Shown piece by piece: positions 5,865 through 19,488 of a stretch of DNA of 23,763 nt. This stretch comes from a virus: positions 1-23,763 of IMG/VR virus record IMGVR_UViG_3300034374_007273, one strand, 5' to 3'. How positions within the stretch are numbered: the stretch's first letter is position 1; each line of letters starts with the position of its first letter. The translations under genes were made by a program, and so were the position numbers. Under the pieces are notes generated by a model. The model was not told the DNA's origin. It saw only the letters and a program-made list of their open reading frames with translations, and ran no database searches.

Positions 5865-7463
5865 TTAATTCTCGGTATTAGTATTACCTTGAATAACGTT
5901 TATTTCTTGTTCATATTGTTCTCTTGGAGAAATAATACGATTATCTTGAGATATTTCATCACTTCCAGTAGTATCATCATAATCTGTAGGAATTGCATCA
6001 TTATTTTTAGCAACTTCTAAGAATGTTGATCTTGGAATTAATCCATTTTGATACCATTCAGTAATTAATCTCATCCAATCACTTCCTCTTGGAGAAGCAT
6101 TGAAGTCAGATGATAAATTAAATCGAATATCTTGTTCAGTTATATTAACATCATATCTCCAATTTACAAGATGTTTGATAATTTTTTTCATGCTTTCTGA
6201 TATTTTAGCATTTAAACTGGCAAGTGCCGCATTTTGTGCAGCATTTCTTAAGCTTAAGGCAACACCGGATTGATCGGAATTATTGGGCTCTAAACTTAAC
6301 ATTTTAACACCAATTCTCGTTAATTCATCATATCCACCTTTAATAGCTTCTTCCATATCTTTTAAAGCATTGGTTGGTGTTTGTAATGTTTCAACAGTAT
6401 CATCTTTATTAACAAATAACCAAGTACCTAAACCTTGCTTAACAAGATCAGATTTTTCAGCTTCTGTTAATGAATCAGATTTAACAACTGGTGTATAAGT
6501 TGCACTTAAATATAATAAATGGTTTCTTCTTGAAATTTTATTATATAAAGCAATTTCTCTGTTTACAATGGCAGTCATTAAAGGGTCAACTGTATCAATT
6601 GAACCATTTAAAGGAAAGAACGGTATATAATCCATTCTTTTGCCATTTTGAAATAAATTTGTATTTGTTTCTTTTAAAATCCAATCATCTGTTAATTGAT
6701 CAAATGAATAATCAACTCCACCATCAATAAATGTAGGTGTATCAGATGTATTTCTATAATATGTGTCAATTACATATAAACCATTTTCATCTAATTTGTG
6801 AACTTGTACAGTATCAACATATTTTGGATGAAATGGGCTATTTGGATCATCTTCAAGTACAAAATATCTAGTAATTAAATTAGATAGTTTCATTTGACCT
6901 TTATAATCAGTAGCAACAGACCAATTTACAACATTTTCAGCGTGGTGTAATATTGGATAAGGTTTTACCTCTCTTCTTTCAGCTGGTGTTAAATTTTCTA
7001 AATCTACAACAGGAAAGTCTATTTGAATAAAGGCTCTTGATGTTTGTAATTCTTCCCATAAAGCAGTGCTTAAAAATGATATCAGGTTACTTTTGTCAGA
7101 TCCTATATCATCTAATATCCATTGCTTAGCTCCTTCTGGAGCCCCGTTAATTTCTAGCATTGGTTGTTTACGTAATAAACCACCTATTATCATTTTACAA
7201 AATTCACTAGATACACCCGGTACCTCAGCTTCAGCTTTGTAAAAATCATATTGCTCTTGTGTCATTGTAGGGTTAAACGGAAGTAATAAGTTGTCACTTG
7301 AAGGCACAGAATCATAATCCTTAGTATAAGACGGACCTTGGATAATTGCTCTGTTTCGTTTCCATTCGTTTATTTGACTCAGGTATTCATCATTTGGATA
7401 TCCTGGGCCTTTGGCAGTTTCTGTAGATTTAACTATAGAACTGTTTTTATATCTAATTGCCAT
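5865..7463 (-). CDS. Phage portal protein (DUF4055 type)
   Basis: This 532-residue protein is the probable dodecameric portal at the head vertex, through which DNA is packaged and ejected. The N-terminal part contains TMTQEQYDFYKAEAEVPGVS and FCKMIIGGLLRKQP, the pattern of the DUF4055 portal group. The middle (MDYIPFFPLNGSIDTVDPLM, then NREIALYNKISRRNHLLYLS) and GVALSLRNAAQNAALASLNA match the long helical stem of that group. The C-terminus is Gln/Asn/Glu-rich and probably flexible. It is transcribed with the terminase genes but separated from terL by the 430-nt non-coding stretch. A T7-like portal (gp8) would look different, so the head is not of T7 origin. Confidence 0.85.
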   Translation of the reverse strand: MAIRYKNSSIVKSTETAKGPGYPNDEYLSQINEWKRNRAIIQGPSYTKDYDSVPSSDNLLLPFNPTMTQEQYDFYKAEAEVPGVSSEFCKMIIGGLLRKQPMLEINGAPEGAKQWILDDIGSDKSNLISFLSTALWEELQTSRAFIQIDFPVVDLENLTPAERREVKPYPILHHAENVVNWSVATDYKGQMKLSNLITRYFVLEDDPNSPFHPKYVDTVQVHKLDENGLYVIDTYYRNTSDTPTFIDGGVDYSFDQLTDDWILKETNTNLFQNGKRMDYIPFFPLNGSIDTVDPLMTAIVNREIALYNKISRRNHLLYLSATYTPVVKSDSLTEAEKSDLVKQGLGTWLFVNKDDTVETLQTPTNALKDMEEAIKGGYDELTRIGVKMLSLEPNNSDQSGVALSLRNAAQNAALASLNAKISESMKKIIKHLVNWRYDVNITEQDIRFNLSSDFNASPRGSDWMRLITEWYQNGLIPRSTFLEVAKNNDAIPTDYDDTTGSDEISQDNRIISPREQYEQEINVIQGNTNTEN

Positions 7464-7893
7464 ATTGTGTTATTCCTAAACATTAAGATGAACCAAAACA
7501 TTTGGCTCGGTTATTAAAATAATTTTTGATTTGGCCGATCCAAGATCAAAAGAAATTGGTGTTCGTCAAAGTGCGATTGGCCACCCTAGCCCGACGCCAA
7601 AGAGGGATCTAGTCCCCCTCACGCCCAGCAGCCCATTAACGCCCCGAGCCTAGTAGGGCAGTCAGTCAGTTCTATTTGAATTGAAAGCGCTCTAATCGTA
7701 CAACCACGCCTGCCTTGCTAAATATAGTATTTGCTGGGCTCTAGGCTGTAAAATTGAAAAAGCTCGGACCGAATGATTGGCTTTCGGACCACAAAAATTT
7801 AAATAAGCTTTATACACCAATGGTTAAGTGCCATTTGATTATTGGCTAACATTGATTAACTTTATTATAAACTATTGATTATTTAGTTACGAA
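7464..7893. ncRNA. 430-nt G+C-rich non-coding stretch, candidate structured RNA
   Basis: No reading frame of useful length exists on either strand. By hand count about 53% of 7561-7740 is G+C, against an obviously A+T-dominated surround. Several stems are visible: 7524-7530 with 7545-7551, continued by TTGG/CCAA; TTGGC 7577-7581 with 7596-7600; GAGGG 7602-7606 with 7616-7620; GCCCAGCA 7623-7630 with 7732-7739; AGCCTAG 7647-7653 with 7741-7747; GGACCGAA 7766-7773 with 7783-7790 (one mismatch). The two long-range pairings cross each other, so a pseudoknot is possible. The strand is not settled; co-transcription with the late block would make it minus. It is not a tRNA or tmRNA as far as I can read. 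A packaging site or genome-end signal beside terL is an alternative. Confidence 0.5.
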
Positions 7894-9177
7894 CTAAAAT
7901 GACCACGACCTATCACGGATAGCTTGCGGTTTATGTTTACCTATTGGATATAAATATTCACATATATATCTTACACCATCAGAAAAGTGTTCAACACCTT
8001 TTGACTTGTCGATAATAGCATTATCCATTCCAGTAGTAAAACCTTCTTTCCAAGTTGTTGTCTCAACCGAGGCAATTGTCCTTGGAGTCTTGTCTTTATT
8101 AAAATATAATCTTGTATTACCTTTAGCATCTTTTAACAATGCATTAACAGCATTAACACTATCAACCAATGGTGGTTGTTTAGATCTTGCTAATACTTTA
8201 AACCCTGCATTTCTTAATATACTAAAATCTGTTGTACCTGTAGCAGCACTGGTTTTCATTGCTCTACCGGAAGCATCAGGATAACATATTATATCTCTAT
8301 TTTTATATCGACCTTTTATAGATCTAATTAATTGATGAGTATCAGCATTGCCATAAAACTCATCCATTGCATGTAATTGGTTACCTCGATGGCACCATAC
8401 AGTTGAAGCCATTATTTTGACGTTAAAGTCAATGCTTATATGTATTGGCTCACCTTCTTCAATTGGCAATAAATTATTTGTTACATGTATATTTCGATTA
8501 AAATTATAAAATACAGCATCACCAGTGTTATTAAAGGTGGCGCAATATTCTTGATTAAAACTTTTTTCATCCATTGTAACCCGAGCAAGTTCAATTTCTT
8601 CTTTCATATCTGGTCTAACATTTTCAGCAGTAAACTGCCAAGACTTCCATAAACCTGATTTATCTTCTTGACCTTTAACCCATAACTTATAAAAGTCATT
8701 GGTTATACCTTTTGGTGTACTTATTACAAATACACTTGCTCTTCGTTGTGGATCTGAAGTCATAGGTAATATAACTTCTGTAAATGCATTTTGTTTAATA
8801 AAGGCAAATTCATCTAACACAATAAATGTAGGTGATGGTGAAATACCTCTTAAACTGTCTGGCCTATCAAACCCTTTTAGGGTAATCTTGGATCCATTAA
8901 TAAATCTTATTTCCAAATCTATTTCTCTTGGATAACCATTTATATGATCTGGGTGAACAAGACTTTTTAATGTTGTCCAAATAGATTCTCTGATCATCGA
9001 AACAGTAGGTCCGATAATTAAAGCTCTTCTACCTGGTTCTTCTAAACAATGGTTATATGCAGCAACGGCTGCCAAATATGATTTACCAACTCTTCGTCCA
9101 GATGCCATTACTTTAAACCTAGCAGGATTTGTTAAAACTTCCTGTTGAAAGTCGAAAAGTTCTATTTTATGATTCAT
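7894..9177 (-). CDS. terL: Terminase large subunit
   Basis: This is the ATPase/nuclease motor that cuts and packages phage DNA. Walker A is at residues 25-33 (ASGRRVGKS), Walker B at about 118-123 (TFIVLDEF with Asp122/Glu123), and the coupling motif is VISTP at 151-155. The RNase H-like nuclease half shows acidic Asp250 (SIDFNV) and Asp301 (YPDASG), with a third acid likely in HFSDGVRY near residue 400. The length of 427 aa is typical. It lies between the lysozyme gene (51 nt upstream) and the 430-nt non-coding stretch. Confidence 0.93.
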   Translation of the reverse strand: MNHKIELFDFQQEVLTNPARFKVMASGRRVGKSYLAAVAAYNHCLEEPGRRALIIGPTVSMIRESIWTTLKSLVHPDHINGYPREIDLEIRFINGSKITLKGFDRPDSLRGISPSPTFIVLDEFAFIKQNAFTEVILPMTSDPQRRASVFVISTPKGITNDFYKLWVKGQEDKSGLWKSWQFTAENVRPDMKEEIELARVTMDEKSFNQEYCATFNNTGDAVFYNFNRNIHVTNNLLPIEEGEPIHISIDFNVKIMASTVWCHRGNQLHAMDEFYGNADTHQLIRSIKGRYKNRDIICYPDASGRAMKTSAATGTTDFSILRNAGFKVLARSKQPPLVDSVNAVNALLKDAKGNTRLYFNKDKTPRTIASVETTTWKEGFTTGMDNAIIDKSKGVEHFSDGVRYICEYLYPIGKHKPQAIRDRSWSF

Positions 9178-10486: not shown

Positions 10487-10508
10487 TCTGTAAGGTATAG
10501 AATTTGAA
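10487..10508 (-). promoter_or_regulatory. Phage RNA polymerase promoter, AC class (late)
   Basis: The minus strand reads TCTATACCTTACAGA at the downstream end, preceded by TTCAAAT. It is one of six copies of TCTAT-RY-CTTACAGA in the window and the nearest to terS. Its direction, by the orientation rule that holds for all six, is leftward into the late block. Recognition by the phage polymerase is inferred. Confidence 0.75.
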
Positions 10509-10551
10509 TCTTTTGTTGCCTTTGGCATAAATTGGGCCTTATAGCTTATTA

Positions 10552-10645
10552 GGCTTATATAAGCTTATATAACTTATTTATATATTTATTTATATATTAT
10601 AAGGCTTAATAGGCCTAAGGCTTATATAAGCTTATATAAGCCTTA
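10552..10645. repeat. AT-rich direct repeat and 30-bp perfect palindrome ahead of the late block
   Basis: The 20-mer ggcttatataagcttatata occurs at 10552-10571 and again at 10619-10638. The second copy lies inside a perfect 30-bp palindrome, 10616-10645, centred on AAGCTT. Between the copies is almost pure A/T. The block lies between the two late-side promoters (10659-10680 and 10487-10508), downstream of bS21. A related ataagcttatata occurs at 18547-18559, beside the other promoters. It could be a terminator or RNA-processing hairpin, a protein site or an origin element. Confidence 0.7.
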
Positions 10646-10658
10646 AGCTTTAGCGTTT

Positions 10659-10680
10659 TCTGTAAGACATAGAATTTGAA
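10659..10680 (-). promoter_or_regulatory. Phage RNA polymerase promoter, GT class (late)
   Basis: The minus strand reads TCTATGTCTTACAGA, preceded by TTCAAAT exactly as in the 10487 site. It lies 13 nt beyond the bS21 stop and fires leftward through the palindromic repeat into the late block. Assigned from the six-copy, direction-consistent set. Confidence 0.75.
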
Positions 10681-13587: not shown

Positions 13588-13792
13588 ATTTTAAATCCAT
13601 TTGATCAATGCCTTCATTCAAATGGTCTATATCTTCCATTATATCTTGGAAGCCTTTGTTTATAATAACACCTATTTGTATTTGATCAAATTGGATCCTA
13701 TTTATCCTTTTATTTAATTCTTGATTAAAGATAAATAGAACCACAATTGAAAAAACTAAAACAAATAGTAACCAAGTTGGTATTTCTATCAT
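13553..13792 (-). CDS. Membrane-anchored coiled-coil protein, 79 aa
   Basis: The product opens MIEIPTWLLFVLVFSIVVLF, one clear membrane span, followed by about 55 helical polar residues with hydrophobic heptad positions (IGVIINKGFQDIMEDIDHLN). Its ATG overlaps the stop of the ABC/GNAT gene by one base (TAATG). The layout resembles the 62-aa gene at 5354-5542 and small spanin-like or membrane-tethering proteins. Position in the block with the polymerase argues against a lysis role. Function unknown. Confidence 0.65.
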   Translation of the reverse strand: MIEIPTWLLFVLVFSIVVLFIFNQELNKRINRIQFDQIQIGVIINKGFQDIMEDIDHLNEGIDQMDLKYDKITSKINNR

Positions 13793-15051
13793 TAGTTTCT
13801 TTCCATAATAAATTGATAATCGGTTTCACCAGCTATTGGTGGCCTAAAATCTTTTATTATATTTCCGGTTAATTTATTTTGAGCTCTGTTTTTATTATCA
13901 ATCCAACATTTAGTTTCTAATATATTATCAATAACTAAATTAGGATCTTCTAAATCAAAACCCTTAACTCCAACATAATGAAATGCTTTGGTAATACGAT
14001 GCTCATGTTTTTTAAAATAAGTTTCATCATAACCACCAAACTTCCTAGGATTGTCATTAGGTTTCTGAGATTTTCTAACATCAGAACCTTTTATAAATTG
14101 CCAATCTGGATCATTATTCATTTTCTTTTGTAATGCTGGAATAGCAGTTACAACTTTACATCTTCCATAATGACCTGTTGTATGATTGAAATTATGTGTT
14201 GCAATTTGAGCCAAGTTTTTAAATATAGGATAACCTATGCCTAAGCCTTGAAAATCAGGTAATACAACCACTCTTCCAATATTATAACAAGCTTTTAACT
14301 TTGGATGAGGAAAAGCATTTAAAGAGCCATAACCTACTAATGCATTATTCCAATAATACAAATAACAATGAGGTGTATTACTTGGAAGATCTGCAGTTAA
14401 ATAGTGATGCTTTTTAAATACGCCCCAAGCACTTTTGTCGGCTTTTCTAATTTCCAAAGTGATGTTTGGTCGCCTGGCTAACCTTTCCGTGCTTAAGATC
14501 CCTGTTTTGGTATCAAATATCCAATCCGGTCTTAACCACTCAATAACATCATAATGACAGCCTACCAATACAATATTTTTTAAACCTTTTCTATCAACAT
14601 ATTTTCTAATGCTATTAGATAAAGCTTTGGCTACATTTCTATCAATAACAGAAGTATATTCATCTACAACTGCCCCAGATTGTAATGCTCTGGACATATG
14701 TGCTCTAAATTTTTGTCCAGTTGATAATGTATGATAAGGCTTAAGTTGATCAGGTATGCTATTTAAAGCTACTGCTGATAATTTTTCTGAAGCTTCATCA
14801 TATGAATTAAAATGTGAAGCAATAGCCTTATTTGGATCCCAATTAAATTCCGCTTCTTTTAATCCTAATGATCTTAATATAGATGATTTACCTGAACCAC
14901 TCGGACCTACAATTAATCCTATACCAAAGTTTTTTGGCATATTAAATTCTGGTACCTCAAATTCATTTTCACCTGTCCAAGCAAAGTCAGATGCTAATGA
15001 TATTCTTTTTGTTATATCATCTTGTTCAACTTTAGATTTTAATATAGTCAT
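13792..15051 (-). CDS. ABC-type ATPase fused to a GNAT acyltransferase domain
   Basis: The product of 419 residues has no membrane segments. The N-terminal ATPase has Walker A GPSGSGKSS (49-57), an ABC signature variant LSTGQK (109-114), Walker B ending VVDE (Asp130/Glu131) and switch His166 (VGCHYD). From about 197 comes a GNAT-like fold with RVVVLPDFQGLGIG (260-273), the acyl-CoA/pyrophosphate loop. The architecture is that of COG2401, an ABC ATPase fused to a predicted acetyltransferase. The GNAT superfamily also contains the phage Mu Mom DNA-modification enzyme, so a role in modifying DNA or another macromolecule is possible but unproven. The start at 15051 lies one base after the preceding stop; a longer frame from 15114 would overlap that gene. 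Confidence 0.8.
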   Translation of the reverse strand: MTILKSKVEQDDITKRISLASDFAWTGENEFEVPEFNMPKNFGIGLIVGPSGSGKSSILRSLGLKEAEFNWDPNKAIASHFNSYDEASEKLSAVALNSIPDQLKPYHTLSTGQKFRAHMSRALQSGAVVDEYTSVIDRNVAKALSNSIRKYVDRKGLKNIVLVGCHYDVIEWLRPDWIFDTKTGILSTERLARRPNITLEIRKADKSAWGVFKKHHYLTADLPSNTPHCYLYYWNNALVGYGSLNAFPHPKLKACYNIGRVVVLPDFQGLGIGYPIFKNLAQIATHNFNHTTGHYGRCKVVTAIPALQKKMNNDPDWQFIKGSDVRKSQKPNDNPRKFGGYDETYFKKHEHRITKAFHYVGVKGFDLEDPNLVIDNILETKCWIDNKNRAQNKLTGNIIKDFRPPIAGETDYQFIMERN

Positions 15052-15052
15052 A

Positions 15053-15340
15053 TTATTTATCCTCTCCTGTTTTATAAAAGTTTTCCATATTTTGTAATAA
15101 ATTAGCAAGTGCAATTATATTTTTTTGATCTGAATTAATAATTTCACAAACTAAATTAGTTGCCTTAAGAGCCACTTGGGCCGGAGTAGGTTCCGAGCCC
15201 ATTTGATCTTTGATAAGAAAATTAGTTATCCTATTTTTAAACTTTTGATCTAATTTAGGAATTTTTTGTTTTCTAGTTTTCCTAGTCCAATTTTCTTGTC
15301 TCTTTTCCATTAGTTCTTCAAATGATATTTCTTTTGACAT
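15053..15340 (-). CDS. Hypothetical 95-aa helical protein
   Basis: The N-terminal half is basic (MSKEISFEELMEKRQENWTR, then KTRKQKIPKLDQ). The C-terminal half is a helical, mildly hydrophobic segment (PAQVALKATNLVCEIINSDQ) ending GEDK. A strong AGGAGGAAA precedes the ATG. It ends one base before the ABC/GNAT ATG, so the two are probably translated together and may act together. No family recognised. Confidence 0.7.
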   Translation of the reverse strand: MSKEISFEELMEKRQENWTRKTRKQKIPKLDQKFKNRITNFLIKDQMGSEPTPAQVALKATNLVCEIINSDQKNIIALANLLQNMENFYKTGEDK

Positions 15341-18022: not shown

Positions 18023-18117
18023 TTTATCCTCTTTAAATTAAAATTAAAAACCATCTAAAAAAATTAGGTGGTTATCAATTTTAAAAATGATCTATTTAGG
18101 ATTAATGGCTGGTTTTT

Positions 18118-18276
18118 ATATCAACTTAGCTAATTATATTTCCGATAACCCTTAGCCAGGTAAGTTCGACTCGGTTGATATGCCGATTAAGAATTTTTAG
18201 ATCCCTATATACCGTCTCCGAAGGTATCCTGGTTAGCCCCATTTTATTGGTATTCCCGTTAGCCAGGTGGTTTTTT
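18118..18276 (+). ncRNA. Attenuator-like structured element ending in an intrinsic-terminator-like hairpin
   Basis: On the plus strand CCTGGTTAGC (18228-18237) pairs with GTTAGCCAGG (18258-18267) over 10 bp with two G-U pairs, and TTTTTT follows at 18271-18276. The same left arm could instead pair with an earlier copy TTAGCCAGG at 18152-18160. Further stems are ATATCAAC 18118-18125 with 18174-18181, TCGG/CCGA 18171-18186, and ATACC/GGTAT 18209-18227. The G-U pairs would be A-C on the minus strand, which favours plus-strand RNA. No promoter for it was found; it could equally be part of the long leader of the leftward block. Confidence 0.45.
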
Positions 18277-18479
18277 ATGTTTTTGAGTTAGTAGAACCTT
18301 AACTAATAACCTATATAAACAATATATATTATATATACAAATAAAAAAGCTTTATTCCACAATAAATAGCAATTAGTTTCCTTAATTACGTAGGCCGATA
18401 ATTATATACATTTTTTATAGATAAATAAAACTTACGAAAATGGATATATTTTGGTTTTTTCTGCGACTGATTTGAAACT

Positions 18480-18501
18480 TCTGTAAGGTATAGATTTTGA
18501 A
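18480..18501 (-). promoter_or_regulatory. Phage RNA polymerase promoter, AC class (leftward)
   Basis: The minus strand reads TTCAAAA and then TCTATACCTTACAGA. It fires toward the block starting at 18022 through a leader of about 460 nt. Its upstream edge is one base from that of the rightward site at 18503, forming a divergent pair. Confidence 0.75.
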
Positions 18502-18502
18502 A

Positions 18503-18524
18503 TCCTAATTCTATGTCTTACAGA
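18503..18524 (+). promoter_or_regulatory. Phage RNA polymerase promoter, GT class (rightward)
   Basis: The plus strand reads TCCTAAT and then TCTATGTCTTACAGA. It points to the replication block and is back-to-back with the leftward site at 18480-18501. Confidence 0.75.
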
Positions 18525-18575
18525 AAAACTAAAAATAAAACTTATCTATAAGCTTATATAGTTATATGAATATAT

Positions 18576-18597
18576 TCCTATTTCTATACCTTACAGA
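18576..18597 (+). promoter_or_regulatory. Phage RNA polymerase promoter, AC class (rightward)
   Basis: The plus strand reads TCCTATT and then TCTATACCTTACAGA. It shares the TCCTA upstream part with the 18503 site, and lies 21 nt before the 27-bp hairpin of the replication-block leader, so a transcript from here would begin almost with that hairpin. Confidence 0.75.
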
Positions 18598-18617
18598 GAA
18601 TCTATCAACTAACTAAT

Positions 18618-18689
18618 TAATTAGTCTATTTGTATAGCCAATATGTTTTATATCCTCCTAATATATTGGCTTTATAAATAGATTAATTA
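18618..18689 (+). promoter_or_regulatory. 27-bp leader hairpin with anti-Shine-Dalgarno loop
   Basis: The arms 18618-18644 and 18663-18689 pair over 27 positions with two G-U pairs and one U-U mismatch on the plus strand. The 18-nt loop contains TATCCTCCT (18651-18659), the exact complement of AGGAGGATA (18696-18704), the ribosome site of the first replication-block gene. The hairpin holds loop and ribosome site at opposite ends, so both pairings cannot form fully at once: this looks like a switch, or an RNase III-type processing stem. Confidence 0.6.
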
Positions 18690-18706
18690 TTTAACAGGAG
18701 GATAAA

Positions 18707-18874
18707 ATGCGTGATGATTACCGTTGTGAAGAATGTAAAAACACAACTAAACCGGATCAATTTACATGTAATTGTTTGTGTTTAAATTGCGGTCCGTGTG
18801 ATGGAGAATGTAAATATGGCGAAACAAAAGTTCAAAACATTCGAGCCAAGGCCAAAACCGAAAAAAAGGCCTAG
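18707..18874 (+). CDS. Small 8-Cys zinc-finger-like protein, 55 aa
   Basis: This is the first gene of the rightward replication block, with a full AGGAGG ribosome site 6 nt before its ATG. The N-terminal 35 residues carry eight Cys: 7 and 10 (CEEC), 21, 23, 25, 28, 31 and 35 (CNCLCLNCGPCDGEC), enough for two zinc sites. A basic tail follows (KVQNIRAKAKTEKKA), which overlaps the next gene in another frame. A small nucleic-acid or host-protein binding zinc protein is likely. No named family recognised. Confidence 0.7.
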   Translation: MRDDYRCEECKNTTKPDQFTCNCLCLNCGPCDGECKYGETKVQNIRAKAKTEKKA

Positions 18875-18950
18875 AGTTCATAAAAAATCTAAAAATAAAG
18901 ATGAAAAAAGAATGTTTAAGAAATATAATAGACAAGGAAGACCAAAATAA
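18816..18950 (+). CDS. Tiny very basic protein overlapping the zinc protein, 44 aa
   Basis: The frame starts inside the 8-Cys gene (59-nt overlap) with GGAG about 9 nt before the ATG. It reads MAKQKFKTFEPRPKPKKRPR, then VHKKSKNKDEKRMFKKYNRQ and GRPK. Almost half the residues are Lys or Arg, with Pro-rich repeats. It ends 11 nt before the SSB ATG. Because the overlapped part is read in two frames, one product may constrain the other. Function unknown; nucleic-acid binding is likely from charge. Confidence 0.6.
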   Translation: MAKQKFKTFEPRPKPKKRPRVHKKSKNKDEKRMFKKYNRQGRPK

Positions 18951-19472: not shown

Positions 19473-19488
19473 ATCTATGTCTTACAGA
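19467..19488 (+). promoter_or_regulatory. Phage RNA polymerase promoter, GT class (internal, rightward)
   Basis: The plus strand reads AGCTAAA and then TCTATGTCTTACAGA. It lies between SSB and the ASCH-like gene, ending 10 nt before that ATG, so its transcripts would be nearly leaderless apart from the AGGAA ribosome site. Confidence 0.75.

Follow-up and report, generated by a model that had tools for sequence, protein, structure and literature searches.

The RNase III hairpins of the late genes of phage T7 are short single hairpins. GOLLD and ROOL are large structured RNAs of unknown function from phages and prophages, and GOLLD rises during lysis (PMC12286853). For pelagiphages, our literature search found no RNA of this sort, and a term search of the paper on the Pelagibacter phage Kolga turned up nothing on RNA or on intergenic features (PMC8163748). 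Here we describe an intercistronic element between the genes for the large terminase subunit (terL) and the portal protein in viral DNA of 23,763 nucleotides (nt), IMG/VR record IMGVR_UViG_3300034374_007273, hereafter the window. The element occupies positions 7464–7893; the minus strand carries terL, gap and portal alike, and all features of the locus given below are on that strand. It contains a stretch of ~270 nt in which the sequence changes quickly and the outer ends of the fold remain complementary; this suggests a viral RNA that has not been described so far. The data support an untranslated, conserved and closed fold in the sense of the messenger RNA (mRNA); the fuller reading, that the element is a new structured phage RNA and likely a late noncoding RNA module, has in our judgement about an even chance of being right.

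An earlier reading of the letters, made without database searches (the sequence-only reading), had matched the region to no known RNA class, and the Rfam search agrees with it: for the window and 11 relatives there was no match at the gathering threshold, the phi29-type prohead RNA (pRNA) family included, and at relaxed E-values matches were at chance level only. Neither transfer RNA (tRNA) nor transfer-messenger RNA was found in the window or in 19 relative loci.

Closing helix of the element

The ~270-nt domain is closed by a helix, P0, of 8 base pairs (bp) in the window, where the 5′ arm (AUUGGUGU, 7814–7821) pairs with the 3′ arm (ACACCAAU, 7555–7562) in mRNA sense. Relatives were grouped by inspection into A (window), B, D (Kolga), E and F, and at the P0 positions group B carries GUUUACAGCUAU/AUAGUUGUAAAC, GUUUACGUAA/UUACGUAAAC and other pairs. 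Compensation was assessed by an alignment-free arm-swap test, in which the duplex energy of a cluster's own arms is compared with that of arms exchanged between clusters. With arms chosen by eye in 15 clusters, the first such test of P0 gave p = 0.00055. When 1,022 window-position pairs were scanned in 16 clusters, the nine strongest cells all lay on P0, with z-scores down to −5.0; for P0's seven strongest cells, no permutation out of 2000 did as well. With the 3′ arms reversed as a control, z did not go beyond −2.93 in any of 270 cells; a signal away from P0, at offsets 50/−138, was given no weight, the reversed control there also reaching −2.6.

The orientation of this signal bears on the possibility, which we consider unlikely, that the element is a signal in the DNA itself, for packaging (pac/cos) or at a genome end, whose richness in inverted repeats is incidental. 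For P0 the arm-swap z-score is about −4.8 in mRNA sense versus −2.8 to −3.6 in antisense, and compensation that is stronger in mRNA sense argues against such a DNA signal.

Inside P0, a candidate inner helix, P1, would join GGUCCGA (7764–7770) to UCGGGCU (7588–7594); it has moderate support from the arm-swap scan (z −3.2 in mRNA sense, reversed control +0.4) and is, by inspection, disrupted in some group A members.

Several results weigh against a conserved structured RNA. Column-based counts over a mixed alignment for the structure, P0 included, are not above shuffles, with 57% of P0 cells paired in group B, and RNAalifold, run with 14 sequences from groups B and E, returned 19 pairs, one of them compensatory. 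P0 is weak in the relatives L033, L028 and L047. Its arms were first chosen by eye, a choice which the 1,022-pair scan addresses, but the anchors of that scan were set by hand. Single-sequence folding of the gap is mildly better than that of shuffles on both strands (z −1.8 and −1.9), and the z-scores of the relatives in sense, about −1.9 on average, spread widely, from +0.7 to −5.1. The register of P0 is shifted between clusters by bulges, and this may explain the missing column-level support. Compensatory helix changes, the mark of a conserved structured RNA, were found in the alignment-free arm swap of P0 and in the flanking hairpins described below, and column counts for P0 alone were not significant.

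The sequence-only reading, which named no strand, had pointed out two crossing stems that could form a pseudoknot, GCCCAGCA/TGCTGGGC (7623–7630 with 7732–7739) and AGCCTAG/CTAGGCT (7647–7653 with 7741–7747). Both stems are present and do cross, their G-rich arms within 7623–7653 and their C-rich arms within 7732–7747, at a level expected by chance: an equal or better crossing pair arises in 70 of 300 dinucleotide shuffles, and the gap holds nine perfect stems of at least 7 bp versus 6.9 expected. In the close group, 91% and 78% of the pairs of the two stems are retained with no clear compensatory pattern. The pseudoknot is therefore unsupported, and the proposal of a structured RNA stands instead on P0, the flanking hairpins and a bipartite module, features that the earlier reading had not named.

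The gap as a trait of the Kolga lineage

The window has 28.5% G+C, positions 7464–7893 have 40.0% and positions 7555–7821 have 47.6%; the richest 200 nt of the window (at 7573) reach 52.5%, against a maximum of 40.0% for 200 nt elsewhere in it. A gene-free, G+C-rich island had been noted from the letters, and both descriptions are borne out, since G+C in the window is highest in the gap and 7464–7893 holds no gene: its open reading frames are at most 42 amino acids (aa) long, and no frame remains intact in over half of the close relatives. A hidden gene was rejected on the ground that these frames are not conserved.

Scans with terL and portal yielded 52 distinct terL–portal stretches. All Kolga-type relatives in which both genes are readable hold the gap, at 366–662 nt; L248 and L252, whose portals are 47% identical, were set outside this group. 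Since Kolga-type relatives keep the gap, whereas the other pelagiphages HTVC111P, HTVC202P and HTVC026P (terL 34–37% identical) have a terL–portal spacing of 3 nt, the long gap is a trait of the Kolga lineage. The relatives L233 and L235 have a strongly diverged terL (~31–32% identical to the query terL proteins) before a closely related portal (78–79% identical) and retain gaps of 655 and 662 nt; on comparison of these sequences, terL has probably been replaced in both. The gap of L008 has the G-rich part of the element enlarged by repeats of the type GGGCCTTTATGGGTCTT. A second copy of the element was sought in the window and Kolga, with no convincing repeat.

A DNA signal would fit an element that adjoins terL, and one whose core tracks terL (r 0.74) more than portal (r 0.36) in pairwise distance, a correlation that linkage alone could explain. 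It would also fit the 18 collected contigs that end inside the element; their ends, however, are scattered and not at one position, and the element is kept alongside two other terL types. This scatter speaks against a fixed DNA end at the element, and the suggestion, made from the letters, that the region might be the genome end finds no support. By a rough count, contig ends per base are more frequent in the element than in the flanking genes, a surplus that may stem from difficult assembly or from differences among strains.

Drift and reassortment of the core

Between the window and Kolga, the core is 39% identical and the portal N-terminus 85%; the sequence thus drifts while the pairing holds. 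In several relatives (L047, L050–L053, L017 and L022), the parental type of the core differs from that of the portal leader, and on this account the core looks self-contained.

Flanking hairpins, module and G-rich tracts

Hairpins on both sides of the domain were examined with a custom-written covariation test, R-scape-like in idea, with a tree-based null. A hairpin with a CGU triloop lies over the terL stop codon (7882–7898) and covaries in group A (E ~ 0), its stem swapping AGUU/AACU to AAGC/GCUU. On the portal side, a leader hairpin (7490–7508) has a UGU triloop, CGU in many relatives, and covaries with E ~ 0 both in group B and in 52 relatives together; by inspection, the hairpins at the two ends share a YGU triloop. 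Next to the domain, the 5′ hairpin CAAUG...CAUUG (7818–7854) is nearly invariant, with 99% of cells paired in group A, and its 3′ arm overlaps the 5′ arm of P0, so that alternative pairing is possible. The hairpin UUUUGAU...AUCAAAA (7524–7551), outside P0, has 96% of cells paired and is mostly invariant; a small hairpin (UCG...CGA, 7563–7576) sits beside the 3′ arm of P0 and was followed in relatives by inspection. A second leader hairpin, CUUAAUGUUUAGG (7472–7487), carries a likely Shine-Dalgarno sequence, AGGA, also by inspection.

Within the domain, a bipartite module, YCCRWAARC-N8-CRGYCRA (UCCGAAAGC CAAUCAUU CGGUCCGA in the window, 7764–7788), has a shared register with its 8-nt spacer in groups A, B and D and in L233, the register being seen by inspection. 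In 257 Gb of bacterial genomes the module pattern has 8 matches versus a rough chance estimate of ~7, and no title among them names Pelagibacter; a host RNA was rejected on these two grounds.

These features bring in the main rival explanation, a cis-acting control or processing element whose fold and flanking hairpins would set cleavage, stability or translation of the late mRNA from portal onwards, modelled by analogy on the RNase III sites between T7 late genes. The strict module pattern with a preceding TTGTGT occurs in 14 IMG/VR contigs, and all 14 matches lie at the terL–portal locus, as expected of a locus-bound element; the element also stays upstream of portal in L233 and L235 despite their other terL type, and immediately upstream of the portal ATG lie a hairpin that covaries and the likely Shine-Dalgarno sequence. 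The reassortment of core and portal leader means, however, that an allele-specific contact between the two is not needed, and in size and closed form the element goes beyond what a simple processing site would need. We regard a cis-acting role as a tentative alternative to a noncoding RNA module.

The G-hairpin GAGGGGGACUAGAUCCCUC (7602–7620), with 95% of cells paired in group B and 65% in group A, raises a further alternative, that of a terminator or attenuator in which the hairpin and subsequent U residues would intermittently halt the phage RNA polymerase. Many relatives do have GGGG-CCCC hairpins and then UUUUU; the window, Kolga, L040, L041 and L190, however, have a short U-run or none, and the promoter motif discussed below was not found in the Kolga genes downstream of the element. 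An intrinsic terminator, taken as a G+C hairpin with a kept U-run, was rejected, as the U-run is not conserved and no terminator-like site was called at 7602–7620, and we think termination or attenuation very improbable. The only G-quadruplex-capable tract of the window lies at 7614–7645; as a conserved feature it was rejected, the motif being present in only 22 of 70 collected gaps.

Genome context and transcription

The window comes from a phage of the ocean bacterium SAR11 and is a relative of the Pelagibacter phage Kolga. Its nearest named phages are Kolga EXVC016S and the partial twin Aegir EXVC013S (terL 73% and portal 82% identical in aa), which are siphoviruses of Pelagibacter (PMC8163748). 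The genes of the window are those of a phage and include terL, portal, a single-subunit T7-type RNA polymerase (PHROG E 6e-104), a phage lysozyme and a family A DNA polymerase. The upstream neighbour of the element is terL (7894–9177; 427 aa; PHROG terminase large subunit E 5e-49, Pfam Terminase_6N) and the downstream neighbour is portal (5865–7463; 532 aa; PHROG portal protein E 5e-48). Elsewhere, 13792–15114 on the minus strand encodes a predicted fusion of an ATPase-like region with a GNAT acetyltransferase domain (PHROG 11143, function unknown).

A repeated intergenic motif ending in CTTACAGA has six copies in the window and, in Kolga's own variant, three in Kolga. The window copies of TCTATRYCTTACAGA lie at 10487–10501, 10659–10673 and 18480–18494 on the minus strand and at 18510–18524, 18583–18597 and 19474–19488 on the plus strand; repetition and intergenic position indicate that the motif is probably the promoter of the phage T7-type RNA polymerase. 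Two likely promoters, TCTATACCTTACAGA (10487–10501) and TCTATGTCTTACAGA (10659–10673), lie upstream of the late genes (the terS-like gene, lysozyme and terL), at a distance of 2.6 to 2.8 kb from the element. As none of the six window copies falls within the element, it is most likely transcribed as part of the late message. The interval between these two promoters (10500–10660) carries a run of AT-rich inverted repeats (AAGCTTATATAAGCCTTAGGCC...), possibly a replication origin. In a second large gene-poor region, 18030–18950, the promoter motif occurs on both strands and G+C rises locally near 18101–18250.

Discussion

We propose that the ~270-nt domain would be made within a late transcript running from the two likely T7-type promoters through the terS-like gene, lysozyme, terL, the element and portal. 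P0 would join the two ends of the domain into a single closed unit between two flanking hairpins, and the resulting noncoding RNA module might operate late in infection, either excised from the transcript or acting within it; excision and action as an RNA of its own are part of the proposal only. Reassortment of core and portal leader, together with the closed form, favours a self-contained RNA; the strictly constant position ahead of portal speaks for a role in cis.

SAR11 phages, which are extremely common in the sea, have genomes with little spare DNA, and this lineage keeps about 366–662 untranslated bases within the packaging gene block despite its compact genome. With the closing helix, strand and promoter set defined, the element is directly testable in the cultured Kolga/H2P3alpha system, and the candidate promoter motif can be used for mapping transcription in a mostly uncultured phage group.

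Known systems offer partial parallels. The element, lying between terL and portal, resembles the phi29 pRNA as a structured RNA that a phage encodes in the setting of its packaging genes, but it lacks a match in Rfam, and the terminase of the window is of the common large-subunit type. A packaging-associated RNA that serves such an ordinary terminase in motor assembly or DNA choice, pRNA-like in its working and of separate origin, is possible from position only, and we rate it as highly unlikely. GOLLD and ROOL are likewise structured, phage-encoded RNAs of unknown function; they often lie near tRNA islands, whereas the element does not, and it is smaller, has no covariance-model match and is fixed between terL and portal. 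The RNase III hairpins of the T7 late genes resemble it as structured intercistronic RNA of a T7-type late transcript, from which it differs in being a closed ~270-nt domain with flanking hairpins.
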